A stretch of DNA of 21,735 bases from a virus: positions 1 to 21,735 of the IMG/VR virus record IMGVR_UViG_3300037245_003121; one strand, given 5' to 3'. The translations under genes were made by a program, and so were the position numbers. The notes beneath the pieces are model-generated. The model was not told where the DNA came from. It saw only the letters and a list, made by a program, of their open reading frames with translations, and did not search any database. Shown here piece by piece: positions 1,609 through 19,946 of the stretch. Numbering within the stretch: the first letter of the stretch is position 1; each line of letters opens with the position of its first letter.

Positions 1609-2679
1609 ATGGCACTTTTATGGTTAGAGGGGTTTGACTGGATTGATAGCGGTCAGACTGCCTCCACTCTGAATAACATCCTAGCCAAACGCTACCCGTC
1701 CAGGAATGTACTCGCCAGCACGGATGCTATTACAGTCGTGGGCGGTCATGGGAATGGGACATCACTTGCCTTTCGTAATTATCTACAGTATATCCAAACC
1801 CCTGACCTGACCTACGGCGACGTTTGGATCATTGGTGTACGAATTGATTGTAAGTATCTTAGGCCCCGGGATGGGCAAAACATTCTCGTAATGCGGGACG
1901 AGAATGGTGATACCCAAGGGGAAATTAGAGTTTATAGTGACGGAACTCTTGAGTACCGTGGTGGGTCAACCGGGACTCTCGCGCAGTTCTGGAAGTACGG
2001 TTATGGCATCCAGATGTACCTTGAGTTGAAGGTGTCTATCCATGACACGACGGGCTCGTATGAGATTCGTGTAAACGGTGAGACGCTTGTCAGTCAAACA
2101 AACTTTGACACGAAAAAACAATCTACAACAGGCGCTACTTCATTCCGCTTTTATCCGTTGCACACGGACTCCACTAATGGGTCCACAATCAGCGACATTT
2201 ACATCTGCGATGACGCGGGTAGTGTGAATAACGACTTCCTCGGACCCATCCGCGTACTGAGTCTCCACCCTGACGCTGACGGGGACGATGAAGACTGGAC
2301 ACTCAGCAGCGGGGTGGACAGCTACGCCCTAGTGAATGAAACCGAGCCCGTTGATGATGACTCAGATTACATCGAAGACACGGTCACCACCAATCGAACG
2401 CTGTTCACGTATGACGACGTGCCCTCCGGCATGGGTGACAACATCATCGGCGTGCAGGTCGTGACCAATCCACGCATCACCAATGCAACCCCCTATGACC
2501 TGATCAATACAATCAAGTCAGGCGGGACACTATATCCGGAGTCCGCTGTCACGATCGATAACGAGACCTTCAATGGAATGGGGCATGTCATGCAACTTCT
2601 CGAAAGCGATCCTGACACATCGACTGCTTGGACAGCCTCGGGTCTCAACGGCGCACAATTTGGCGTAGAGGTAGGGTAA
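1609..2679 (+). CDS. LamG-like phage virion protein, paralogue 1 of 3
   Basis: 356 residues, starting 15 bases after the previous stop with an AGGAACGAGG leader. The N-terminus reads MALLWLEGFDWI and the C-terminus ends FGVEVG, both shared with the two following genes. The core (residues about 60-200) has the alternating strands of a LamG/concanavalin fold, including VWIIGVRIDC, LELKVSIHDTTGSYEIRVNG and SDIYICDDAGSVNNDFLG. The NNDFLG-x-IRVL segment followed by a YIED-containing tail is characteristic, from memory, of a phage structural family with no assigned function. The 5' two thirds looks more AT-rich than the 3' third, which may reflect mosaic exchange of the ligand-binding part. It is likely a surface-exposed tail or head decoration that binds carbohydrate. 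Membership of a phage virion family is well supported; the ligand is unknown. Confidence 0.7.
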   Translation: MALLWLEGFDWIDSGQTASTLNNILAKRYPSRNVLASTDAITVVGGHGNGTSLAFRNYLQYIQTPDLTYGDVWIIGVRIDCKYLRPRDGQNILVMRDENGDTQGEIRVYSDGTLEYRGGSTGTLAQFWKYGYGIQMYLELKVSIHDTTGSYEIRVNGETLVSQTNFDTKKQSTTGATSFRFYPLHTDSTNGSTISDIYICDDAGSVNNDFLGPIRVLSLHPDADGDDEDWTLSSGVDSYALVNETEPVDDDSDYIEDTVTTNRTLFTYDDVPSGMGDNIIGVQVVTNPRITNATPYDLINTIKSGGTLYPESAVTIDNETFNGMGHVMQLLESDPDTSTAWTASGLNGAQFGVEVG

Positions 2680-2681
2680 AC

Positions 2682-3752
2682 ATGTCATTAGTCTGGATGG
2701 ACGGATTTGACTGGCTGGCCGAGATGGCCGCCCAGTCTGATGTGCAGGAGTGCCTGCTAAAACGGTATTCTGCTGTTAATACCTCCTCTTCAAGCCCCGA
2801 TGGTACGGTTGTTGCAGGTCGGGGTGGCCTCGGACGGGCCCTTTCGATAGCACCCAACGGCCAGTATATTAACACTCATCACCTCAATGAAAGTCAAACT
2901 GGTTCCGACCTCTGCATCATTGGACATGCCTTCAAGTCCTCCGCGTTCGTCAACAACGAGGAACTTATCGAAGTGTACCGGACCGACGTCCGCGCTGGGT
3001 ATCTCAAAGCCTGGACGAACGGAGACATGCAATGGCAGCCGAGTGGCGCTATCTTTGCCAGTGGAATCCTTCAGAATGGTGGCTGGAACTACTTGGAAGT
3101 CCGTGTAACCCTGGCGAATGGCACGGGTGGCGCGGTTCAAATCCGACTCAATGGGCGACAAATCTACGAGAAGCTGGACTTTGATTCAACTTTTACCTTT
3201 GATGGTTGGACTGACGTTCGCTGGCGTGGTCACGGTACGGGAAGTGCCATCGACGACCTCTATGTCTGCAATGGTGCTGGAACCGAGAACAACGACTTCC
3301 TCGGTGACATTCGTGTCCTGTCGTCGAACCCCTCGGCTGATTTCGCAGTCGAATGGGATCAGGCTGGCGTCGGGGCACACTACGAAGAGATTGATGACCA
3401 ACCGCTTTCCGCCGGTCTGGGTGGCGAGCCCTGGACGGACTTTGATTACATCGAAGATGATACCCCAGGCAACAAATGCCTATTTGAATACCAGGATGTG
3501 GCTCCAGGGTTTATAAACCAAGAGGTCAAGGGCCTCCAGCTTGCGACGGCCGTCAGGGTGACCAACCCGCAAGCCCTGCGTCTCAAGAACATCCTCCTGA
3601 GCGGGGCCACCGAAGAAGAGTTGTCCGATGACCCGCTCATGTGGGACATCTATCAGCCGGTCGTGTCGATCAGTGAGTTGGACCCTGACACCACGGACCC
3701 GTGGACCGTGACAGGTATCAATGCTACTAAATTTGGAGTGGAGGTGGGTTAA
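2682..3752 (+). CDS. LamG-like phage virion protein, paralogue 2 of 3
   Basis: 356 residues. The reading frame is open upstream to 2628, but ATG 2682 is chosen because it gives MSLVWMDGFDWL, which aligns with the N-termini of the paralogues, and because it lies two bases after the previous stop, suggesting translational coupling. Shared landmarks are DDLYVCNGAGTENNDFLG, IRVLSSNPSAD, an Asp/Glu-rich DYIEDDTPGNK segment and the closing KFGVEVG. The middle is predicted beta sandwich. It is closer to paralogue 3 than to paralogue 1 through the GVGAHYE and DTPGNK segments. The role is as for its neighbours: a repeated external virion component, probably carbohydrate binding. Function is inferred. 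Confidence 0.7.
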   Translation: MSLVWMDGFDWLAEMAAQSDVQECLLKRYSAVNTSSSSPDGTVVAGRGGLGRALSIAPNGQYINTHHLNESQTGSDLCIIGHAFKSSAFVNNEELIEVYRTDVRAGYLKAWTNGDMQWQPSGAIFASGILQNGGWNYLEVRVTLANGTGGAVQIRLNGRQIYEKLDFDSTFTFDGWTDVRWRGHGTGSAIDDLYVCNGAGTENNDFLGDIRVLSSNPSADFAVEWDQAGVGAHYEEIDDQPLSAGLGGEPWTDFDYIEDDTPGNKCLFEYQDVAPGFINQEVKGLQLATAVRVTNPQALRLKNILLSGATEEELSDDPLMWDIYQPVVSISELDPDTTDPWTVTGINATKFGVEVG

Positions 3753-3753
3753 A

Positions 3754-4815
3754 ATGTCACTATTATGGCTTGATGGTTTTGACTGGATGACAAACGCATT
3801 GAGTGGTACGGCTACATCCTGGGCCCTAAAGAAGCGATACCAACCCGCAAGTGTCCTCATTAGCACCGCTGGGCACAGTACGGTAGGTCGGCATGGCGGG
3901 ACGGGGCTTGCCCTGTACCACCAGGACCAACACATCCAAACCCCGTCAATTCAAGCATATTCTGTATCCGATCATATCTACGTTGGGTATGCGCTACGCA
4001 CCGGTTCGACCATAGGACACACCGGCGCGGATGTCTTCGCCGTCTGGCGCGAGCAAACCCGCCAGTGTTATTTCAACCTGTGGTCTGATGGGACAGGGCA
4101 ATTCTTGCCAGGCGGCGCGAAGTTCGATACCGGCTTTCGGCCAAACCGGTGGTACTACGTTGAGCTACACTTCTATATCCACAACACCACAGGGTTGGCA
4201 GAACTCAAAGTCAACGGTGAAGTCATTCATACTGATCCGAGTGCTGACTTCCAAGGCGCGTCTTCGGCGGGGTGGACTAGCGCCGACTGGCACAGCCATG
4301 GGTTTGCTAGTCGAATCGACGACATTTATGCCTGTAATGATCAAGGGTCTACCAACAACACCTACTTGGGCGACACCCGCGTAGTGCTGTTGAATCCCAA
4401 TACCGACGACACCACACAGTGGGCTCAGAGTGGGGTGGGCGGCCACTACGAAGACGTGGATGACAACCCCGTCACACCGTCGGACGCCGAAGTCTGGACG
4501 GACACTGACTATGTTGAGTCGGACACGCCCGGTAACAAAGACCTGTTCGAGTATGAGAACCTCCCCACGGCGATGTCCGGCGCGACCATTCAAGCGGTGC
4601 AGTGCTTCTCGGTCATTCGCACGACCAACGCTCAAGTGATGTCCTTCAAGGACATCTGTAAGAGTGGGACCACGGAAGTCGATTTATCGACCACGGCGAT
4701 TATGTGGGACAACTATCACCCACTGGTGACCATCCAGGAAACTGATCCTGACATTGCTGGGGCCTGGACCTACGCGACTGTCAATGCGGCTCTGTTCGGT
4801 GTCAAAGTTGGCTAA
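3754..4815 (+). CDS. LamG-like phage virion protein, paralogue 3 of 3
   Basis: 353 residues. The frame extends upstream to 3721, but ATG 3754 is chosen because it restores MSLLWLDGFDWM, matching both paralogues, and follows the upstream stop by one base. The core shows WYYVELHFYIHNTTGLAELK (a LamG-like strand pair), DDIYACNDQGSTNNTYLGD, RVVLLNPNTDD, GVGGHYEDVDD, and the closing FGVKVG. The three genes form a local tandem array whose ends are better conserved than their middles. It is likely a tail or fibre surface protein. No catalytic residues, membrane segment or signal peptide were seen. Confidence 0.7.
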   Translation: MSLLWLDGFDWMTNALSGTATSWALKKRYQPASVLISTAGHSTVGRHGGTGLALYHQDQHIQTPSIQAYSVSDHIYVGYALRTGSTIGHTGADVFAVWREQTRQCYFNLWSDGTGQFLPGGAKFDTGFRPNRWYYVELHFYIHNTTGLAELKVNGEVIHTDPSADFQGASSAGWTSADWHSHGFASRIDDIYACNDQGSTNNTYLGDTRVVLLNPNTDDTTQWAQSGVGGHYEDVDDNPVTPSDAEVWTDTDYVESDTPGNKDLFEYENLPTAMSGATIQAVQCFSVIRTTNAQVMSFKDICKSGTTEVDLSTTAIMWDNYHPLVTIQETDPDIAGAWTYATVNAALFGVKVG

Positions 4816-4826
4816 AGGGTAAACAG

Positions 4827-6821
4827 ATGGCTCTCCGTGTAACTCAACAGTTCGTAGAGTTTGCGACAACCGACGCTGAGGACACTCAGATTCGGTTGAC
4901 GGCTCAGTCCGTCGAGGTCGCAGCCGTTGGGTCCGATTATGACCCCAAACTGCGACTGACGGCCCAGTCGGTCGAAGTCGCAGCCGTGGGCTATGATTAT
5001 GCCCCCAAGCTCCGTGTGACATCCCAGTGGCGGGAAGTGGCCGTTGCCAACATTCACCGAGGCTTCACCAGTCAGCTTGGAACAGTCCAATCGTCCTTGG
5101 CTGGCTCTACATTCATTCTCGGGCACACTGCCGGCATCGGGACTGGCTACATCCCAACCGACCTTGACAGGTCGGCGACCTCCGTCATTGGCCTCACCCA
5201 AGAAGCCACCTGGGCTGGGCCGCTACCGCCCGGGGTCGCGACTAGCACGCTGGTTCTTGACCAGGAAGCCACCGTCGAGTTTGGTGCCTATGGGCGCCCC
5301 GCCGACAGTACCATTGTGCTCGACCACCTAGCCTATGCCAACATCAAGATGTTGGCGGCCAACAATAGCTTCACGCTGACCCAGAGTTCTTATGTCCCGG
5401 TCATCCACAACGTGTCCGCGACAACAGACATCGACATTGACCAGACGTGGTCCCAGGTCCCTGTGGCCAGCGGAACGATCCGGTTGGACGCTGAGTCCAC
5501 CATTGTAATGGACCAAGATGCTGACAGTCAAAGCAAGTCTCGTAGTGTCACCTCCACGCTCAACCTGACTCAGGCAGCGATCGCCGATCGGATTATCACA
5601 GCGGCCAGCACGATTGTTTTGACCCAGGAGGCCCTACAGGGCTTCGTCAACCTGTATGCTGAGTCCACAATCATCCTGGATCAGTCGGCGGGGCAAATCG
5701 CCCTTGATCGAGACGCTGAGACGACGATGACACTCAGTCAGACAGCGACCTCCAGCATCAAGATGCTAGCGGCCGAGTCTACCCTGGTGCTGACACAAGA
5801 TGTCAGTGTGTTACAGCCTTACTATCGGGAGGCGGTGTCGGCCATCTCGGGCACGATACTCGTGTTCAATCCCGAGACGTTTGAGTTGGAGGAGGTGAAG
5901 TGGGGCTGGGATGACCCGGCGAACAACGTCGCGACCTACACCCTCATCACGGGCCCCAGGGACGCCTCGGACATCATCCAGATTCAGCAAGCGGCCACGG
6001 TGGTGTTCATCAGCGTAGACGCCGAGGACTTGACAGCCGACAACACGCTGGTCTTATCGCAGGAAGCTTACCATGGCTTCGCCGAGGACGCTTCCAATAC
6101 ACTCACCCTGACTCAGGAAGCCACTGCGACCCTCTCGGAGTTGGCGTCCAATACGTTGACTCTCGACCAGGATGTCTTCCTCGAAGCGGTGTTCAACAAC
6201 GCGGCTGTGTCCACCTTGAACCTGAGTCAGGCAGTCGTCGCTGCCAAGATCACCGCGACGACTCGGTGCGACTATGACCCGTCGATCGGGAGCAACAGCA
6301 ACCCGCTGGCGCCCGCGCCGCCCCGAGCGACAATTCCGCCACCGGCGGTGGTTCCCATTGACCGCTTCAAGCTGGTCTACCCACACTTCGGTCGGCTCGC
6401 CGTGGGCGAACCGCTGCAAGATGAACTGGTGCTGCGGGCACCGCAATTCGGGAACCGGGAAGGTGTCCAGACCACCAGGATCAACCGTGAGACGCGGAAT
6501 GGCACCTTGATCATCTACCGCGACCCAATCTGGCCTGAGTTTTTCCAGTTGACCGTGGAGTTCGGGGGCCTATCGGAGACCCAAGGTCGAGGCCTGCTGA
6601 CGTTCATTGAAAGTAACCTTGGTCTTGAGATTGGTATCCAGGACCATGAAGGTCACTATTGGACTGGCTTCATTACAAATCCCGACGAGGCTGTCATCCA
6701 GGATGGCCGCTGCCGGTACTCAGCCAGTCTTCAAATTGAAGCCCAACCCCTCGTGACACACGACACCGATCTGACTTCGTATCTCAACGTCCTCCAATCC
6801 GCCGAGGCTGTGTTGAACTAA
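4827..6821 (+). CDS. Repeat-rich phage minor tail protein
   Basis: 664 residues with three zones. Residues 2-79 hold four approximately 20-residue repeats of the type LRxTxQxVEVAAVG (two nearly identical), a motif I recall from phage virion proteins. Residues about 93-470 hold a dozen or more short repeats of the form STLxLxQxA at roughly 20-30 residue spacing (for example at 120, 140, 161, 243, 261, 280, 299, 318, 405, 423, 441, 462), interrupted by a non-repeat insert at about 340-385. A Pro/Ala-rich linker (about 490-510) leads to a globular C-terminal domain (about 511-660) with FFQLTVEFGGLS, LLTFIESNLG and YWTGFITNPDE. That domain resembles the N-terminal part of the next protein and looks like a tail-tube or distal-tail-type beta fold. 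The repeats probably form an extended beta structure. Its stop overlaps the next start (TAATG). Tail role likely; subunit identity uncertain. Confidence 0.65.
   Translation: MALRVTQQFVEFATTDAEDTQIRLTAQSVEVAAVGSDYDPKLRLTAQSVEVAAVGYDYAPKLRVTSQWREVAVANIHRGFTSQLGTVQSSLAGSTFILGHTAGIGTGYIPTDLDRSATSVIGLTQEATWAGPLPPGVATSTLVLDQEATVEFGAYGRPADSTIVLDHLAYANIKMLAANNSFTLTQSSYVPVIHNVSATTDIDIDQTWSQVPVASGTIRLDAESTIVMDQDADSQSKSRSVTSTLNLTQAAIADRIITAASTIVLTQEALQGFVNLYAESTIILDQSAGQIALDRDAETTMTLSQTATSSIKMLAAESTLVLTQDVSVLQPYYREAVSAISGTILVFNPETFELEEVKWGWDDPANNVATYTLITGPRDASDIIQIQQAATVVFISVDAEDLTADNTLVLSQEAYHGFAEDASNTLTLTQEATATLSELASNTLTLDQDVFLEAVFNNAAVSTLNLSQAVVAAKITATTRCDYDPSIGSNSNPLAPAPPRATIPPPAVVPIDRFKLVYPHFGRLAVGEPLQDELVLRAPQFGNREGVQTTRINRETRNGTLIIYRDPIWPEFFQLTVEFGGLSETQGRGLLTFIESNLGLEIGIQDHEGHYWTGFITNPDEAVIQDGRCRYSASLQIEAQPLVTHDTDLTSYLNVLQSAEAVLN
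4830..5063 (+). repeat. Four 60-bp coding repeats (20-residue LRxTxQxVEV units)
   Basis: Units at about 4830-4889 (degenerate), 4890-4949, 4950-5009 and 5010-5063 (partial). The two central units encode IRLTAQSVEVAAVGSDYDPK and LRLTAQSVEVAAVGYDYAPK and are still close at DNA level, pointing to recent duplication. The outer two have drifted. Confidence 0.8.
5103..6237 (+). repeat. Degenerate coding repeats of the STLxLxQxA type
   Basis: Protein-level repeats with consensus [S/T]-T-[I/L/V]-x-L-[T/D/S]-Q-[E/S/D]-A, in residues about 93-470 of the tail protein. Near-identical phrases include STIVLTQEAL, STIILDQSAG, STLVLTQDV, NTLTLTQEA and STLNLSQAV. Two units share the flanking phrase IKMLAA (residues 173-178 and 311-316). 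Spacing is irregular (about 18-30 residues), with a break at about 340-385. Confidence 0.75.
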
Positions 6822-10944: not shown

Positions 10945-11520
10945 ATGGAATCCATCTTCGGTCTTTTCGGACGCATACTCGAAGCCGTGCTATCCTTTGT
11001 CCCTCGGCTTGTGATCGTTCGCGCGACTCACAACGCCGTCAAATGGAAGAGGGGCAAGCACCCTCGTGCAGTCGAGCCGGGTCTTACCATCTATTGGCCG
11101 CTTGTAACCGACATAGATCAAATTGTGGTAGCCCGACAAACTCTGAACTTACCCACTCAAACCTTGATGACCAGCGATCAAAAGCAAGTCATCGTGGGCG
11201 CATTTGTTGTGTACAGCATCAAGGATGTTGTGCAAGCGATCGGCGAGCGGAACTGGGATGTAGAATCTACAATAGGTGACATTGCCCAAGCCGCGATAGT
11301 CGAAGAGCTTACAAAACGCACTCTCGATGACTTGCTCGCTGGTATCTCGGGCGGGCGGGGTTCCAAGCTGAACAAGGAATTGAAGAAGAACTGCCTGCAA
11401 CAGCTACGCCCCTTTGGCGTGCATGTCGAGCGGTGTGGTCTGACCGACTTCTCGACGACCCGTGTCTATCGGCTCATTGGAAATGATGCCGCGCCGTCAC
11501 AGCAATTCACTGAAGAGTAG
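10945..11520 (+). CDS. SPFH/Band 7 domain protein (stomatin/prohibitin-like)
   Basis: 191 residues, starting three bases after the tail-tip gene; GAGG lies eight bases upstream. Residues about 4-27 (IFGLFGRILEAVLSFVPRLV) form a hydrophobic, hairpin-like membrane association segment. Residues about 27-180 carry the SPFH pattern: AVEPGLTIYWPLVTDIDQIV, RQTLNLPTQTLMTSDQKQVI with VGAFVVYSIKD, DIAQAAIVEELTKRTLDDLL, then LNKELKKNCLQQLRPFGVHV and ERCGLTDFS. The family assembles into ring or cage scaffolds on membranes, and bacterial members such as HflK/HflC control FtsH proteolysis. The long C-terminal coiled coil of flotillins and HflK is missing, so this is close to a minimal domain. Position in the tail operon suggests either a virion/entry part or a late host-membrane effector; neither can be decided here. 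Family call is strong. Confidence 0.8.
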   Translation: MESIFGLFGRILEAVLSFVPRLVIVRATHNAVKWKRGKHPRAVEPGLTIYWPLVTDIDQIVVARQTLNLPTQTLMTSDQKQVIVGAFVVYSIKDVVQAIGERNWDVESTIGDIAQAAIVEELTKRTLDDLLAGISGGRGSKLNKELKKNCLQQLRPFGVHVERCGLTDFSTTRVYRLIGNDAAPSQQFTEE

Positions 11521-13853: not shown

Positions 13854-14283
13854 TGATTGCATCCATTTCGATCTGGAGGGCAGCCTGCCGGGCGGTGGCC
13901 GACTGGTCAGGGCGGCAGGCATGCCCGCACAACCAGTCAGCGAACTCCTGAGCGTCCGCAATAAGGCTCGCGCTGTCCCCATTCACACCGAGGATATAGT
14001 CCCACGGGTAGTCGATCAGAGTTTGCTCAGCCTTTGTCGTCGGAGCAACATCGGGGTGGACGATCTTCAACAGGAGACCACGCCGGCACCTGACATGGTT
14101 AGCCGCCCAGTCTGTGTTGATCCCCGGCACGATACAGTCATGTGGGGACCAGTCCAAGAAGTCGGCCAACATGGGCGGCTCATACCGGGTCAGCTTTTCG
14201 CCGTGCCGTAGGAAGGCCGCGACCATGTACCGAACAAACTCGGCCTGCTTCTCGTCGTTGTAATGACCAATACCAAAGATCAT
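13837..14283 (-). CDS. Unknown 148-residue replication-operon protein
   Basis: ATG 14283 overlaps the upstream stop by one base (TGATG), so this start is preferred to an open frame reaching 14367. The sequence begins MIFGIGHYNDEKQAEFVRYM, has a central block MLADFLDWSPHDCIVPGINT with DWAANHVRCRRGLLLK, and a helical C-terminus rich in Ala, Asp and Gln. No membrane segment, signal peptide or clear catalytic motif was found, although His8, D55 and H58 stand in well-structured segments. It lies between the DUF5664-like hydrolase and the exonuclease in a coupled operon, so a role in replication or nucleotide metabolism is likely by context only. The family is not recognised. Confidence 0.65.
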   Translation of the reverse strand: MIFGIGHYNDEKQAEFVRYMVAAFLRHGEKLTRYEPPMLADFLDWSPHDCIVPGINTDWAANHVRCRRGLLLKIVHPDVAPTTKAEQTLIDYPWDYILGVNGDSASLIADAQEFADWLCGHACRPDQSATARQAALQIEMDAINDNVS

Positions 14284-14933
14284 CAGAATACCTCCGGCTC
14301 GTTGTTGGCCGGTGTCCCTAAACGCCGCGAGGGTTCGGGACGTTCGTGTGGGGGTCGGGGGGCACACGGATCACAGCCGGGGTCAGTGTCTCGTAGTTTA
14401 CCAGTCAGCCCAGCGAGATTGGCCCGGATACGTTCACGGTCGCGGTCTTCGACCACCTTCTTAATGTCAGGATTGCGTGCGAGGAAGGCCTTTTCGTCGA
14501 AGAGCTTGGACAGGTCGCCGAGCGACTCATCAAAGTGGGCGACCTCTTTCGGCGGCCGGTCATCGCCGCCCGGGTGTGTGTCGGCATAGTGGCGAAGGAA
14601 GAACAGGTTACAGAACACATGGTCGAGGTGGTGCTCCCCGCTCTCGGGGTCAATGTCCTCGCCGCAGTACCACCATTTGAAGAGGTGACGCAGCAGGCAG
14701 TCCATGCAAGTGGACCATTTCATCCCCTTGGACCAATTCCAGGCGGCGTACTTTATTGTGCCGCCCATGAGGACCCGAGCCGTCCCGGCCAGTAGGTGGA
14801 GCGGAAGCAGGGCTAGGGACACCTTCCCACTGTTGGCACGGGCGCCTGACCCACGGTCGCTGCTGTTGATGTCACCTTCGGCGTAGAAGTCTTCGGGAGC
14901 AGTGTCAGGGGTGCGGGTTGTGTTATCGTTCAT
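14283..14933 (-). CDS. dATP/dGTP diphosphohydrolase-like protein (DUF5664/MazZ-like)
   Basis: 216 residues; ATG overlaps the upstream stop as ATGA. After a disordered N-terminus (1-27), residues 28-118 match the DUF5664 pattern: GARANSGKVSL (29-39), a helix ending GGTIKYAAWNWSKGMKW (57-73), LLRHLFKWW, GEDIDPESGEHHLDH (91-105) and a last helix CNLFFLRHYAD. DUF5664 proteins are MazG-like all-alpha nucleotide pyrophosphohydrolases; the characterised phage member MazZ converts (d)GTP to (d)GMP to support 2-aminoadenine DNA. Residues after about 125 form a charged extension not needed by the core fold. In the helix before GGTIKY an acidic residue often seen in the family appears to be replaced (LLAGTARVL), so activity should not be assumed. 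The family call is good, the substrate is inferred. Confidence 0.75.
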   Translation of the reverse strand: MNDNTTRTPDTAPEDFYAEGDINSSDRGSGARANSGKVSLALLPLHLLAGTARVLMGGTIKYAAWNWSKGMKWSTCMDCLLRHLFKWWYCGEDIDPESGEHHLDHVFCNLFFLRHYADTHPGGDDRPPKEVAHFDESLGDLSKLFDEKAFLARNPDIKKVVEDRDRERIRANLAGLTGKLRDTDPGCDPCAPRPPHERPEPSRRLGTPANNEPEVF

Positions 14934-15115
14934 TGGTTCTCTCGGGTGTAGGTTTGGAGACGTTCCAGGAGATCGCCAGTGGGCTCCGCGTCAGGTTCGC
15001 AGAAATCACCTCCATGCTGGCGAGCAAACAGGTCTTGATCGGCCGGGAGGTCGGCCACTGGGACGGAAGCCAGCGGGGCTGACTGACCATCAAAGCGGAA
15101 GATGTTGAGCATCAT
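14930..15115 (-). CDS. 61-residue coupled small protein, unknown
   Basis: Starts MMLNIFRFDG at ATG 15115 (a second ATG follows directly) and overlaps the primase stop as ATGA; its own stop overlaps the next start as ATGA. The two four-base overlaps at both ends are the main evidence that it is real. The sequence is acidic and Pro/Ala/Asp-rich with little predicted fold (ADLPADQDLFARQHGGDFCE). No motif is recognised. It might be an adaptor or regulator of the adjacent enzymes. Confidence 0.6.
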   Translation of the reverse strand: MMLNIFRFDGQSAPLASVPVADLPADQDLFARQHGGDFCEPDAEPTGDLLERLQTYTRENQ

Positions 15116-17946
15116 GGTTTGGTATATCCTGGGTCCAGAACCAATCGGCGACTGGTGGACCGAATGTAGGGTTGTTGTGTGAGGTCAGCATGGGCGGGCT
15201 TGCCTTTGCAATCAAGCACCAAGTTGCCCACGTAGAATCCCGTCTCTTGCCCCAGTCGTCCGGTTGGATACATCTCGGGCAAGTCCTGGCTTACACGACG
15301 GATAGTCCAGTAGCCTTGCCCACGCGAGTCGTCGGCCGGGCACGCCTTGTGGAACTGGTTGAAGAACTCTTGCCACTTGAGGACCTTCCCAGGCCAGTAG
15401 GTACAACGCTCTTCAAGGAAGAGGTCCAACGCGGACTTCTGGAACTCTTCGTATCGTTCCTTGCCGGCCGTGTTGATGTAGGGCACCCGCAGACGGCCCT
15501 CCGGTTCGGGAAGCTCCATGTCCACCAGGGTCCGCATGAAGTGGGGCGACTCCTGTTCAAGCCGCTGGTTCAACACCGCCTGAGGCACCTCCACCGCGCT
15601 GGTGAACGCTGGGACGAACAGCATGGTGATCCGTGTGTCCCCGACCTGCGCGAGACACGCATCGCGGTCGTTGGAGCACTGGATGAAGTGGAGCGTGTTC
15701 CGCTGACGGTACACGTCCATTCGCATCCGGCGGATGGCAATGTAATCGCTGGTCGTCCAGTCCTTCATGCGAGCCCGAGCCAGCCCGAAGTTCTTCGCCC
15801 GAGGGTTGATCTCTTCGATGACCGCCAACACAGCGTTGCTCAGTTCACCATTGAAGTCGTTGTCGCTCCGCAGCGCGTTGCTAGCCGGAATCACACCGGC
15901 TGTCATCAGCCGGGCGATCGACATGTGGAGCGTGCTTTTCCCACAGTTCTCGGGACCATGCAGGAACAGGTAGGGCAGCTTGTCGAAGGGGTGTCGCAGC
16001 AAACAGGCGATCCACATTTGGAGGTACTGCCGGCCGGTCTTGATGCCATGCTTCACCGCCCAAGCATGCTCTTTCAGAGGCACGTTGAGGTCAGCACTGA
16101 CATGGTCAAGCACCATGTCCCAGTGTGGGTGTTTGGGGATTTCATCGATCTCAAGGTCCGCCGGCTGGTGCCGCCACTGGGCTGCATTCAAGTTCCATTG
16201 CCGGCCGCCCGGGTACTCGGGGTGGAAGGGCATATTGACAAGCTGCCAGGACCCCATCACGGCCATGCCGAGGATGTCGTCCAGTTCCTTCCCCTTGAGT
16301 TGGGATTTCTGGCCGAGGGCCAGACGGGCGTTGGTCGATGACTGCCGGACCCATCGCCCCGAGTCATCGTGGATACTCCACCCAGCGTCCTCGTCGGCCG
16401 TGGACTTCAGGGCACGGAGAATATGGTCCCACTGGACTGACGATGCCTCAGGGTCGCCCGCTTTGATGTCCACGCCCTTGATGACCCGCTCCCACCAGCC
16501 GCCGCGCTTCTCGACCCAGCCCCGGCCGGGATGGTTTTCCTCCTTCTCGGCTTTCATCCAGAGAACGACGCGACCTTGCTTGGTCGTCCGAATCTGTGAC
16601 TGCCGGTGGCCGTAGGCTTCCATGTTTAGTGTAATGTCCGTCCCAACCAGATTGAGACACCGCTTGGACTCGGTCATGCTTTGAAACACAAAGTTGCCCT
16701 CCCCGGTCTCGGCCCCGCCCGACATTTGGGCGGCGAGTTCCAGGGTGGGCTTCCGATCGAACAAGCAAGTGGTCCAGCCACGGCCATCTTGTGACCACGC
16801 TTCGTGCTCGACGATACCTGGGCTGAATCGGAAGACCTTGAAACCCTTCCCGGGAAGTGGGAACATGAAACAGTTCGGCGTCCCCGGATCGTTGCCTTCG
16901 GAGTTGGTCGCAAAGAAGCCATCGAACTTACCGACGTTGTCTTCCATGAGTCGCTTCAAACCGCAAGTGTGGGTCTGGAACAGCTTGTAATCATTATGCC
17001 AGACCGTGGAGATTCCCTCGCGGTCCGCCAAGTCGATCAGGTCGTCGATCACCGTTTTGTGATGATCGGTCATCTTGATGATGGGCCGACTACTAGCAAG
17101 CTGATCCAAGTCGTCTGCGTGCTCGTCGTCAACGCCCTGGACGCGCACCTTCGATCGGCGTTTGGTGACCACTTCCACATTGTCCCGCCAGTTGTCGGGG
17201 AGCATATCGAGGGTGAGAATCTTGGTGGCCGCCTGTGTCTGTTCGAGACCACGGTTCTCTTTGGTCACGGCCCGGTGCCAGACCCACATATTGCCGCCAC
17301 AGCAGTCGATCGCTGACGCGAAGTCGAACCCAGCGTGTTGGGACATGAGACCGAGCACACACCGGGCGAGCGCGGCATGCACGGTGTGGTTCTCGGTCGG
17401 GATGCCCGCTTCCTCTGGATCGTCGGCGTCAGTGAAGTACACGTAGAGGTGGATACCACCTCCCCGAGTGGAGAGGCGGGATTCCACCCAGGGGATACGG
17501 CTAGCTTCTTCCTGGATGGCAATCAACTCTTCCTGACTGACCCCGACGCCCTTGGCGTGTCCCGTGATGCTGTCGAAGTCGAACGCCACCCACTTGGATC
17601 GCTTCTCTTTCCAGTTCCACCCCGTCATGCCGATGGCTTCCGCGTAACCGTCGTGCGACGGGACTTGGTCGGGTAATGATGGCCCAAGGGGGAACTTCAG
17701 TTCGTAGTCGCTCCACTGAGGCGTGTCGGTCATTGCTCCCCGGGGAATCCGAATGTGCCAGTATTTGTGGTGGCCGTCACTCCATGTGTTGCGGGCGTCG
17801 GCGACCGGTTCGCCCCGCCCGGCCGAGACATTCACCTGGACTTCCATGGAGGGCGTGTAACGCACCAGGGTGTCAGGGTTGTTTACAAGGTTGTGTTTTG
17901 CTTGGTACTGGAAGAGGTTACGGATGCACGTTGTGACTCTGGGCAT
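15112..17946 (-). CDS. Archaeo-eukaryotic primase-helicase fusion
   Basis: 944 residues from ATG 17946, with AGGGA nine bases upstream. TTG 17979 would add 11 residues and has AGGAGG eight bases ahead, but that AGGAGG abuts the -10 box and would lie upstream of the expected transcript start, so ATG is preferred. The N-terminal 250 residues fit a Prim-Pol/AEP domain: WVAFDFDSITGH with D123 and D125 as metal ligands, and STRGGGIHLYVYF (about 159-171) with the sxH-type histidine. The C-terminal part is an AAA+/SF3-like helicase: GPENCGKST Walker A at about 664-672, AVLAVIEEIN Walker B about 45 residues later, and LHFIQCSND as sensor 1. It resembles D5/DUF5906-type phage helicases. It should prime and unwind DNA at the phage fork. 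It is the first gene of a six-gene chain driven from 17994-18022. Confidence 0.85.
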   Translation of the reverse strand: MPRVTTCIRNLFQYQAKHNLVNNPDTLVRYTPSMEVQVNVSAGRGEPVADARNTWSDGHHKYWHIRIPRGAMTDTPQWSDYELKFPLGPSLPDQVPSHDGYAEAIGMTGWNWKEKRSKWVAFDFDSITGHAKGVGVSQEELIAIQEEASRIPWVESRLSTRGGGIHLYVYFTDADDPEEAGIPTENHTVHAALARCVLGLMSQHAGFDFASAIDCCGGNMWVWHRAVTKENRGLEQTQAATKILTLDMLPDNWRDNVEVVTKRRSKVRVQGVDDEHADDLDQLASSRPIIKMTDHHKTVIDDLIDLADREGISTVWHNDYKLFQTHTCGLKRLMEDNVGKFDGFFATNSEGNDPGTPNCFMFPLPGKGFKVFRFSPGIVEHEAWSQDGRGWTTCLFDRKPTLELAAQMSGGAETGEGNFVFQSMTESKRCLNLVGTDITLNMEAYGHRQSQIRTTKQGRVVLWMKAEKEENHPGRGWVEKRGGWWERVIKGVDIKAGDPEASSVQWDHILRALKSTADEDAGWSIHDDSGRWVRQSSTNARLALGQKSQLKGKELDDILGMAVMGSWQLVNMPFHPEYPGGRQWNLNAAQWRHQPADLEIDEIPKHPHWDMVLDHVSADLNVPLKEHAWAVKHGIKTGRQYLQMWIACLLRHPFDKLPYLFLHGPENCGKSTLHMSIARLMTAGVIPASNALRSDNDFNGELSNAVLAVIEEINPRAKNFGLARARMKDWTTSDYIAIRRMRMDVYRQRNTLHFIQCSNDRDACLAQVGDTRITMLFVPAFTSAVEVPQAVLNQRLEQESPHFMRTLVDMELPEPEGRLRVPYINTAGKERYEEFQKSALDLFLEERCTYWPGKVLKWQEFFNQFHKACPADDSRGQGYWTIRRVSQDLPEMYPTGRLGQETGFYVGNLVLDCKGKPAHADLTQQPYIRSTSRRLVLDPGYTKP

Positions 17947-17993
17947 AGGTGAGTTTCCCTGGTGAGGGTGCGAAGTCAACTGTCGTCCCTCCT

Positions 17994-18022
17994 ATTCTAC
18001 ACCAGAGTGGTAGTCTTGTCAA
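17994..18022 (-). promoter_or_regulatory. Sigma70-type promoter for the replication operon
   Basis: On the minus strand, TTGACA (18022-18017), a 17-nt spacer and TAGAAT (17999-17994). The expected transcript start is near 17987, which leaves about 40 bases of leader before ATG 17946. Confidence 0.8.
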
Positions 18023-18060: not shown

Positions 18061-18138
18061 CTTACTTTACGCTATAGTAATACGTGTAATTTGAAACACG
18101 TTTTAGAAAACAACATGGACTATAGGGCCTAAAGTAAG
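18061..18138. repeat. Nested inverted repeat in the divergent control region
   Basis: The outer arms CTTACTTTA (18061-18069) and TAAAGTAAG (18130-18138) pair over 9 bases. The next arms CTATAGT (18072-18078) and ACTATAG (18119-18125) pair over 7 bases. Thus 16 base pairs form, separated by a 2/4-base internal loop. Inside, ACGTGT (18082-18087) and ACACGT (18096-18101) form a further 6-bp arm pair with an 8-base spacer. The element lies between the minus promoter and the plus promoter, next to parB. It may be an operator, a ParB-like binding site, or a folding origin element. Confidence 0.7.
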
Positions 18139-18200: not shown

Positions 18201-18230
18201 TTGAGAATTTGCTCCCAAACTGTGTATACT
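18201..18230 (+). promoter_or_regulatory. Promoter for the parB-like gene, giving a near-leaderless transcript
   Basis: TTGAGA (18201-18206), 18-nt spacer, TATACT (18225-18230). A start seven bases after the -10 falls at about 18237, only two bases before the ATG. No Shine-Dalgarno sequence is visible before that ATG. Confidence 0.6.
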
Positions 18231-18238
18231 GGTAGTAG

Positions 18239-19156
18239 ATGGACATCGCCCGCGACATTCCCCTGAACGACGTTGCCCCCGCCCCGGTACTACTCCGCGC
18301 GGTCAACGAACTCTCCATGGCCTACCTCAGTATGGTGGTAGAGCTTCGTAACGACGGGCACCTCCTCAACGCGATCCTCGTCCGCCCGATCGAGGGAGGT
18401 TACGAAGTGGTCGATGGGATGTACCGTTGGACGGCGGCACATGAGGCCAAATTGACGACAATACAATGTGTCGTCCGTGTGATGACAGACGAAGAAGTTG
18501 TTATCAAACAGATACAAGCCAACGCCTCGCGGAAGGACACCGACCCCATCGAGTTCGCTCGCCACTTGGAGCGACTCCGAAAGCTACATGGCGACGACTG
18601 CACGCTTGTGAAGTTGGCCAACCTTGTGGACAAGCCGCGATCCTGGGTCAGTGAGATGCTCCAACTGAACCACCTGATCCTGATGGCCAAGGAGGCTGTC
18701 CGGCGGGGAGAGATCACCGTGGGCAACGCGAAGCTCCTCGCCAAATTGAAGCCCCACCTTCAACAACCTTACATCCGTGACGCAAAGCTCCTGCCGACGA
18801 AAGAGTTCCGGCGGGTGGTCGCCCGCGCGGTCAATGACTACCGGGAGGCTCTCAAGAGCGGCCGGATGTCCGCTTACTATGGCGGCGAGGCCCGCCCTTT
18901 CTGTCGGGGAACAACTGAGGTCTTGACCGAGTTGGACAGTTGGCCCAACGCCGGCCACATGATCTTCAAACACGGGTGCAAGACACCTCTGGATGGCTGG
19001 AAGCTGGCCGTGCAGTGGGTAATGAGCATGGACCCCGATTCCATTGAAGCCCGCCACAAGCGGGTCCAGCAACAAGAGATGACCACCCTGGAACGGCAAA
19101 CCGCCAGAGAGGAGGCCCGAGAAAAAGCAAAGGTTGACAAACCGGCAATACCCTAG
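18239..19156 (+). CDS. ParB/Spo0J-like DNA-binding protein
   Basis: 305 residues. ATG 18239 gives MDIARDIPLNDVAPAPVLLR, the first strand of a ParB N-terminal domain, so the start fits even without a ribosome binding site. Residues 28-75 continue with YLSMVVELRNDG, ILVRPIEGGYEVVDGMYRWT and AAHEAKLTTIQCVV, with DGMYRWTAA at the site of the ParB box II (normally GERRxxA). Residues about 87-115 hold IQANASRKDTDPIEFARHL, and 122-146 form a helix-turn-helix (TLVKLANLVDKPRSWVSEML). The C-terminus is a charged helix that may dimerise. ParB proteins bind a specific DNA site and some hydrolyse CTP. No ParA partner is seen, so a regulatory or replication role is as likely as partition. The nested repeat just upstream is the obvious candidate target. 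Confidence 0.82.
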   Translation: MDIARDIPLNDVAPAPVLLRAVNELSMAYLSMVVELRNDGHLLNAILVRPIEGGYEVVDGMYRWTAAHEAKLTTIQCVVRVMTDEEVVIKQIQANASRKDTDPIEFARHLERLRKLHGDDCTLVKLANLVDKPRSWVSEMLQLNHLILMAKEAVRRGEITVGNAKLLAKLKPHLQQPYIRDAKLLPTKEFRRVVARAVNDYREALKSGRMSAYYGGEARPFCRGTTEVLTELDSWPNAGHMIFKHGCKTPLDGWKLAVQWVMSMDPDSIEARHKRVQQQEMTTLERQTAREEAREKAKVDKPAIP

Positions 19157-19208: not shown

Positions 19209-19946
19209 ATGTCGAAAGTTTCTTCTACTGATCTGATTCCTGCTGACTTGCTTGAGAGCCTGCCTGCCCAGATGGGCAATGACGACGACTTCAAGGACCT
19301 GTCCCAATCGACGGACTTCCTGCGGCGCCTGCAATTGGTCTCCAAGGGCAAGTATGTTGACAGCCGGAAAGTCGGGCCGGGCAACTACGCTGTCATCCTT
19401 GACAGTGACAACGCTCAGGACCTTGGCGACAAGATTGACATCTTGGTTCTCGCTCGGCGGCCCAAGGCTCTCGATATGAGCGACATCGAGCAAGTCATCG
19501 TATCCTACGACAACAAGTCCGACCTCTTCGTTGACATCGCCGCCCGATCCGGCGTGAAGGATTCTGGCTGCCAATACGGCGTGTCCTTCCTGGTGATCGA
19601 ACGCAGCACCGGCGGCCTCTATGAGTTCTTCTGTGGCTCCATTAGCCTGAGGAAGGAAATCCCGACCCTCAGTGCTTACATGTCCCTCTCTGCGGCGCAG
19701 ATCGAAGCCCGTGGCTTGAAGGAAGTGGAGCCTCACGGCCCGCTGCCCTTGACGCTCGGGTCGAAGAACGTCCGGAAGAAGAACTATTCCTGGTTCGTGC
19801 CAGTCCCGCAGTCATGCTCGACGCCATTCACGGCTGGGCAGGTGCCCAACGCCGATGCCCTTCGCAAAGAGATGGAGCGATTCGTCAATCCGCCGAAGGA
19901 TGAGACCACGGTGGTGCCGACGGACGACAAACGTCGCCCCCGCTAA
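19209..19946 (+). CDS. Conserved phage protein of unknown function
   Basis: 245 residues; GGAG lies about nine bases before the ATG. I recognise the layout from uncultivated phage genomes but know no assigned function. Landmarks are DFLRRLQLVSKGKYVDS (N-terminal third), KVGPGNYAVILDS, IDILVLARRPKALDMSDIEQ, CQYGVSFLVIERSTGGLYEF with an FCGSISLRKE continuation, and PHGPLPLTLGSKNVRKKNYS followed by WFVPVPQSCSTPF. The C-terminal 30 residues are charged and probably disordered. It is soluble, with no signal or membrane segment. A dedicated strong promoter suggests abundant early expression, as for a single-stranded DNA-binding or recombination accessory protein, but no such motif is proven. Confidence 0.75.
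   Translation: MSKVSSTDLIPADLLESLPAQMGNDDDFKDLSQSTDFLRRLQLVSKGKYVDSRKVGPGNYAVILDSDNAQDLGDKIDILVLARRPKALDMSDIEQVIVSYDNKSDLFVDIAARSGVKDSGCQYGVSFLVIERSTGGLYEFFCGSISLRKEIPTLSAYMSLSAAQIEARGLKEVEPHGPLPLTLGSKNVRKKNYSWFVPVPQSCSTPFTAGQVPNADALRKEMERFVNPPKDETTVVPTDDKRRPR

Follow-up and report, generated by a model that had tools for sequence, protein, structure and literature searches.

The inverted repeat that separates the divergent primase and parB genes of this phage lies in a control region that, across hundreds of uncultured relatives, carries two outward-facing copies of a phage-specific, probably promoter-type element, with a third copy elsewhere in the genome and a phage-encoded sigma factor as the likeliest reader (probability about 0.6). 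Mirrored copies of such an element occur throughout the phage family, a third copy recurs at a constant place, the copies of one genome change in concert, and a sigma factor gene is present in a regular position. The layout of the element, as read from sequence, suggests that it is a promoter, and analogy with other phages suggests that the sigma factor may read it. The window, by which we mean the whole 21.7-kb stretch of DNA that was analysed, is an atypical and weak example of this family feature.

The inverted repeat of the window and its neighbourhood

The inverted repeat in the window is real. All three pairs of arms given in the preliminary description are present (Table 1), and they lie, as described there, between a divergent primase gene and parB, with promoter-like sites on both sides. 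The two outer pairs have the same centre and almost adjoin each other, with 2 nt vs 4 nt between them on the two sides. The third pair is off that centre (3 nt vs 17 nt), so the arms do not form the clean nested set of three that had been claimed. The near-contiguity of the two outer pairs had also been called unlikely by chance, which holds for the combined arms. The 9-bp arm alone is ordinary: when the 259-bp gap was shuffled by dinucleotides, 12% of the shuffles equalled it, as did 33/166 tiles of the window. Nested arms of 9 and 7 bp, a statistic picked after the data were seen, arise in 3/5000 shuffles (0.06%) and in 1/166 tiles. A gap-penalised self-alignment of the whole 259-bp gap was not significant (53/200 shuffles). 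The folding calculation that had been proposed for the single strand gave -13.7 kcal/mol (z = -3.4 vs shuffles). The arms are not themselves palindromic, and the same is true of the arms in most relatives. The repeat matched no known RNA family. When the exact arms were sought elsewhere in IMG/VR, 22 loci had one arm, and these are taken as chance matches because none had both arms and none had primase or parB.

Table 1. Features of the window in and around the inverted repeat
Feature	Position	Strand	Remarks
DUF5906 primase/helicase-like protein	15112..17979	-	Opens leftward unit
Sigma70-like promoter TTGACA-17-TAGAAT	17994..18022	-	Towards primase, outside arms; 11/12 consensus positions
Left (primase-side) arm	18061..18078	-	Outward reading ACTATAGCGTAAAGTAAG; mirrors right arm, 2-nt length difference
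Right (parB-side) arm	18119..18138	+	Outward reading ACTATAGGGCCTAAAGTAAG
Outermost inverted pair	18061-18069 / 18130-18138		CTTACTTTA / TAAAGTAAG
Middle inverted pair	18072-18078 / 18119-18125		CTATAGT / ACTATAG
Innermost inverted pair	18082..18101		ACGTGT (18082-18087) / ACACGT (18096-18101), loop 8; lengthens to TAATACGTGT / ACACGTTTTA (9/10); 14 nt off common centre; possibly chance
Sigma70-like promoter TTGAGA-18-TATACT	18201..18230	+	Towards parB, outside arms; 10/12 consensus positions
ParB-like protein (ParB_N + HTH_ParB)	18239..19156	+	Opens rightward unit
Protein after parB, function unknown	19209..19946	+	Similar protein is the primase's divergent neighbour in five parB-less relatives

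The gap of the window also holds two good sigma70-like promoters, where 0.3 would be expected, and the one directed towards parB ends 8 nt ahead of the parB ATG. The two promoter sides, when compared with each other, showed no similarity above shuffles. These promoters are closer to the genes than the arms, which lie approximately 80-100 nt away, a greater distance than in most relatives. Neither a sigma gene nor a third copy of the element was seen within the window, which is a fragment; the gene order of the relatives would place both of them past its ends.

Mirrored elements in related phages

Relatives were collected from IMG/VR and from bacterial genome contigs, and approximately 100 were kept of at least 330 that matched; a search of GenBank phages yielded no close match. 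Several of the genome-contig matches are labelled Planctomycetota, which hints at the hosts of this phage group. At loci with both genes, the DUF5906 primase and the ParB-like gene are mostly divergent neighbours (approximately 100 relatives). Across 75 distinct gaps, a long inverted repeat outperforms all 200 shuffles in 62 and reaches p <= 0.05 in 69. In the first set of gaps the arms are mostly perfect over 12-21 bp; they extend to 47 bp in L053 and can be aligned across 76-77 bp in L077 and L078. The arms face outward and their ends mostly lie near start codons. Most of the elements are bipartite and non-palindromic, and some resemble -35/-10 pairs, as in L014, where TTGCAA-17-TATTAT is found on both sides.

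The arm sequence of the window was found in no relative, although the flanking genes and the genomic setting are conserved. The preliminary description would have read such a pattern as evidence against a functional site, and this is misleading because all copies change together while the architecture stays. Arms are similar inside one genome and dissimilar from genome to genome: across 14 related loci, mismatches per 19 positions amount to 0.57 within a genome vs 4.80 between genomes, so both copies of the element change together.

The element also persists where the gene arrangement differs. In L075, where parB is displaced and no longer divergent, the element is still common to primase and parB, its copies now being in direct orientation. 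Five further loci (L025, L028, L053, L054, and L059) keep a strong mirrored element with no parB beside the primase, and a search of their contigs (up to 77 kb) found no parB. The divergent neighbour of the primase at these five loci resembles the window protein encoded after parB, a likeness judged by eye from translations; a direct search for relatives of the window protein returned none. We also considered an invertible segment and provisionally set it aside, as the three near-identical contigs that could be compared, L002-L004, carry the segment between the repeats in one orientation and show no inverted isomer.

A third copy of the element and a phage sigma factor

The third copy lies tens of kb from the gap, at the head of the packaging and structural block, which encodes the terminase large subunit (TerL), the portal, and the major head protein (capsid). 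Among the 13 genomes in which the start of this block is present, 12 have their best non-self match to the element, over the whole contig, at a distance of -6 to 84 nt ahead of the block's first gene; in the thirteenth, G019, a gapped sequence at that place looks similar by eye. Column-permuted patterns equalled the score of the third copy in 0/100 cases for ten of these twelve genomes, and in 3/100 and 4/100 cases for G012 and G028, respectively. The usual first gene of the block encodes a small zinc-finger-like protein, and in two more genomes without this gene the third copy precedes the next gene of the block. The strand blocks of the seven genomes that were mapped fit three large units, each starting at a copy. 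By its position, the third copy suggests that each of the three large units is transcribed from one common signal.

A divergent sigma-like protein surfaced when the core genes of the relatives were compared. Most long contigs encode it: its gene is present in 24/33 contigs by tblastn, as in G005 (L151:6167-6895, -), and a profile search adds more. Of the contigs that lack it, several are fragments or break off within the parB unit. A profile of the protein matches solved sigma factors at 1.6e-19, nearly all Foldseek matches of its AF2 model (pLDDT 86) are sigma factors, with the best alignment for the region-2 domain alone, and PHROG sigma families match it as well; Pfam matches of single sequences are mostly under the curated cut-offs. 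In 24/26 cases the gene is found downstream of the parB-side copy and is encoded on the same strand as parB, and in G047 it comes after the displaced parB. Similarity of the element tracks similarity of the sigma factor beyond the relatedness of the primases (partial r 0.36). However, another core gene gives an equal value (partial r 0.359), so the correlation is not specific to the sigma factor. A search of 39 contigs for PF00940 (T7-like polymerase) gave no match and its control was also empty, so the absence of such a polymerase is unproven.

We propose that the divergent control region carries two outward copies of the element, assigned respectively to the parB-led and the primase-led unit, in which case the inverted repeat would merely be the appearance of two copies on opposite strands, and that the third copy would start the packaging and structural block. 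Host RNA polymerase with the phage-encoded divergent sigma factor would be the likeliest reader, and as the sigma gene lies inside the parB-led unit, its expression would be self-amplifying. We would extend this, tentatively, to a large group of uncultured phages, many of them probably phages of Planctomycetota, in which a rapidly evolving sigma factor of the phage would run each genome (50-130 kb) by way of no more than three copies of a single promoter, and these unlinked copies would change in step with the divergence of that factor. Promoters of phage sigma factors are hard to spot from sequence, and here the divergent layout reveals them as an inverted repeat; a single alignment per genome gives the motif, and the third copy serves as a check on it. 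If the link to the sigma factor is true, these phages would offer dozens of sigma-promoter pairs for studying the co-evolution of promoter recognition, along with a type of phage whose genes for replication and for the virion have one start signal in common. If three copies are indeed read by each phage's own sigma factor, nature would have supplied, in this group, a wide range of distinct pairs of sigma factor and promoter.

Alternative readings and known systems

The preliminary description offered a shared operator, a parS-like site, or a folding origin. The first came near the mark, since two mirror-image regulatory elements are found family-wide, one per divergent operon; the other two were not supported. 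In its strict form, a shared operator would mean that the element is bound not by the sigma factor but by another regulator of the phage, a repressor or an activator, at early and structural promoters alike, in a lambda-like manner. In lambda, the matched OL and OR sites control divergent early operons, and matched sites at divergent operons are what we see here. Near-consensus sigma70 promoters in or beside the mirrored region in L087, L108, and the window favour an operator, as do an extra palindromic, operator-like motif common to the L008 and L014 gaps (TTGATTYGATTA...TAATCAAATCA) and a conserved stretch (up to 47-77 bp) that exceeds the need of a sigma factor. However, the mostly bipartite and non-palindromic elements are promoter-like and unlike the operator of a dimer, the additional copy at the start of the structural block differs from the lambda arrangement, and the shared-gene list, which is less than a full regulator search, holds no group-wide repressor. 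We consider an operator of this kind rather unlikely. It is very improbable that the arms serve the neighbouring ParB-like protein as centromere-like sites or in autoregulation: its ParB_N and HTH_ParB domains are encoded beside the element and parB opens one unit, as a ParB/parS system would have it, but the element persists without parB at the five loci above, another copy stands at the structural block, and the arms of the window are not palindromic half-sites. We give even less credence to a hairpin or cruciform origin formed by the arms in single-stranded DNA. The strand does fold better than its shuffles and a primase gene adjoins, yet the copies in L075 are direct, the third copy is far away, and the extremes of cumulative GC skew, a check that had been suggested, lie off the gap in 8/9 long contigs and approximately 3.6 kb away in the ninth. 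The direct copies of L075, the parB-less loci, and the GC skew together argue against the parS reading and the hairpin-origin reading alike.

For the window alone, the repeat may be a chance pairing or a remnant, with the two outer sigma70-like promoters as the working pair, a possibility that we hold to be appreciable, though we lean against it. The lack of significance under gap penalties fits a chance pairing and weighs against the promoter reading, as does L017, the closest relative of the window by primase, which has no clear inverted repeat. The excess of sigma70-like promoters likewise fits the reading of these two as the working pair, and their position nearer to the genes than the arms, together with the shortness of the arms and their 2-nt difference in length, counts against a promoter-type element here. 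On the other side, the nested pair is rare among shuffles and occurs once in the window, and it lies where the family bears its inverted repeats. The short arms of the window may represent a shortened form of the family element, although the case for this is weak, and the two sigma70-like promoters outside them may do much of the work.

In T7-like phages, the promoters are specific to each phage: they resemble one another inside one genome and differ from phage to phage. The copies described here behave in the same way; unlike the T7-like system, the reader proposed here is a sigma factor for the host polymerase. In phages phiEco32 and 7-11, promoters for a phage-encoded sigma factor stand ahead of gene clusters and of the sigma gene, and pairwise alignment of intergenic regions revealed those of 7-11 (PMC4331800). 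The present relatives also encode a sigma factor, and a motif specific to the phage stands before several transcription units of one genome; the window shows only the two arms, as its contig does not reach the start of the third unit. As in phiEco32 and 7-11, the motif lies upstream of the sigma gene (in the 24/26 cases and G047 given above), and it emerges from pairwise intergenic comparison where the sigma factor is too divergent for motif prediction. In contrast, there are approximately three copies per genome here, one per unit and two of them back to back, and the sequence of the element varies from phage to phage. The likeness to phiEco32 and 7-11 is one of organisation, and it is by inference. 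In the open literature, of which coverage was partial, we found no description of the promoters of this phage group.

Several minor features of the gaps and contigs were also recorded. L046 (contig G023, 51 kb) has no inverted repeat and no detectable sigma gene, and this contig may be cut off. The contig G004 carries two further exact copies of TGATTTGATTATTG, near 11296 and 11445, and the L009 and L016 gaps have multiple TGAGTTTGAACTCA-like or GAATAAACTCAA repeats ahead of genes. Inside the parB-primase gap of L011, ARAGORN places a gene for tmRNA (3686-4049, +) with the tag AKNTVLDGNFAKRELASVA. In L059, the divergent neighbour of the primase is partly duplicated (3689-4030 and 4101-4853, -), and G005 encodes a second, weaker ParB-like protein on the same contig (34112-34567, -). 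In the window, a dATP/dGTP pyrophosphohydrolase-like protein (PHROG_801, Pfam dGTP_diPhyd_N) is encoded at 14283-14933 (-), and an SPFH/Band_7 domain protein is encoded amid structural genes at 10945-11520 (+). Positions 1609-4815 (+) of the window hold three tandem paralogues of approximately 360 aa each (MALLWLEGFDW...), and G021 has similar tandem sets.
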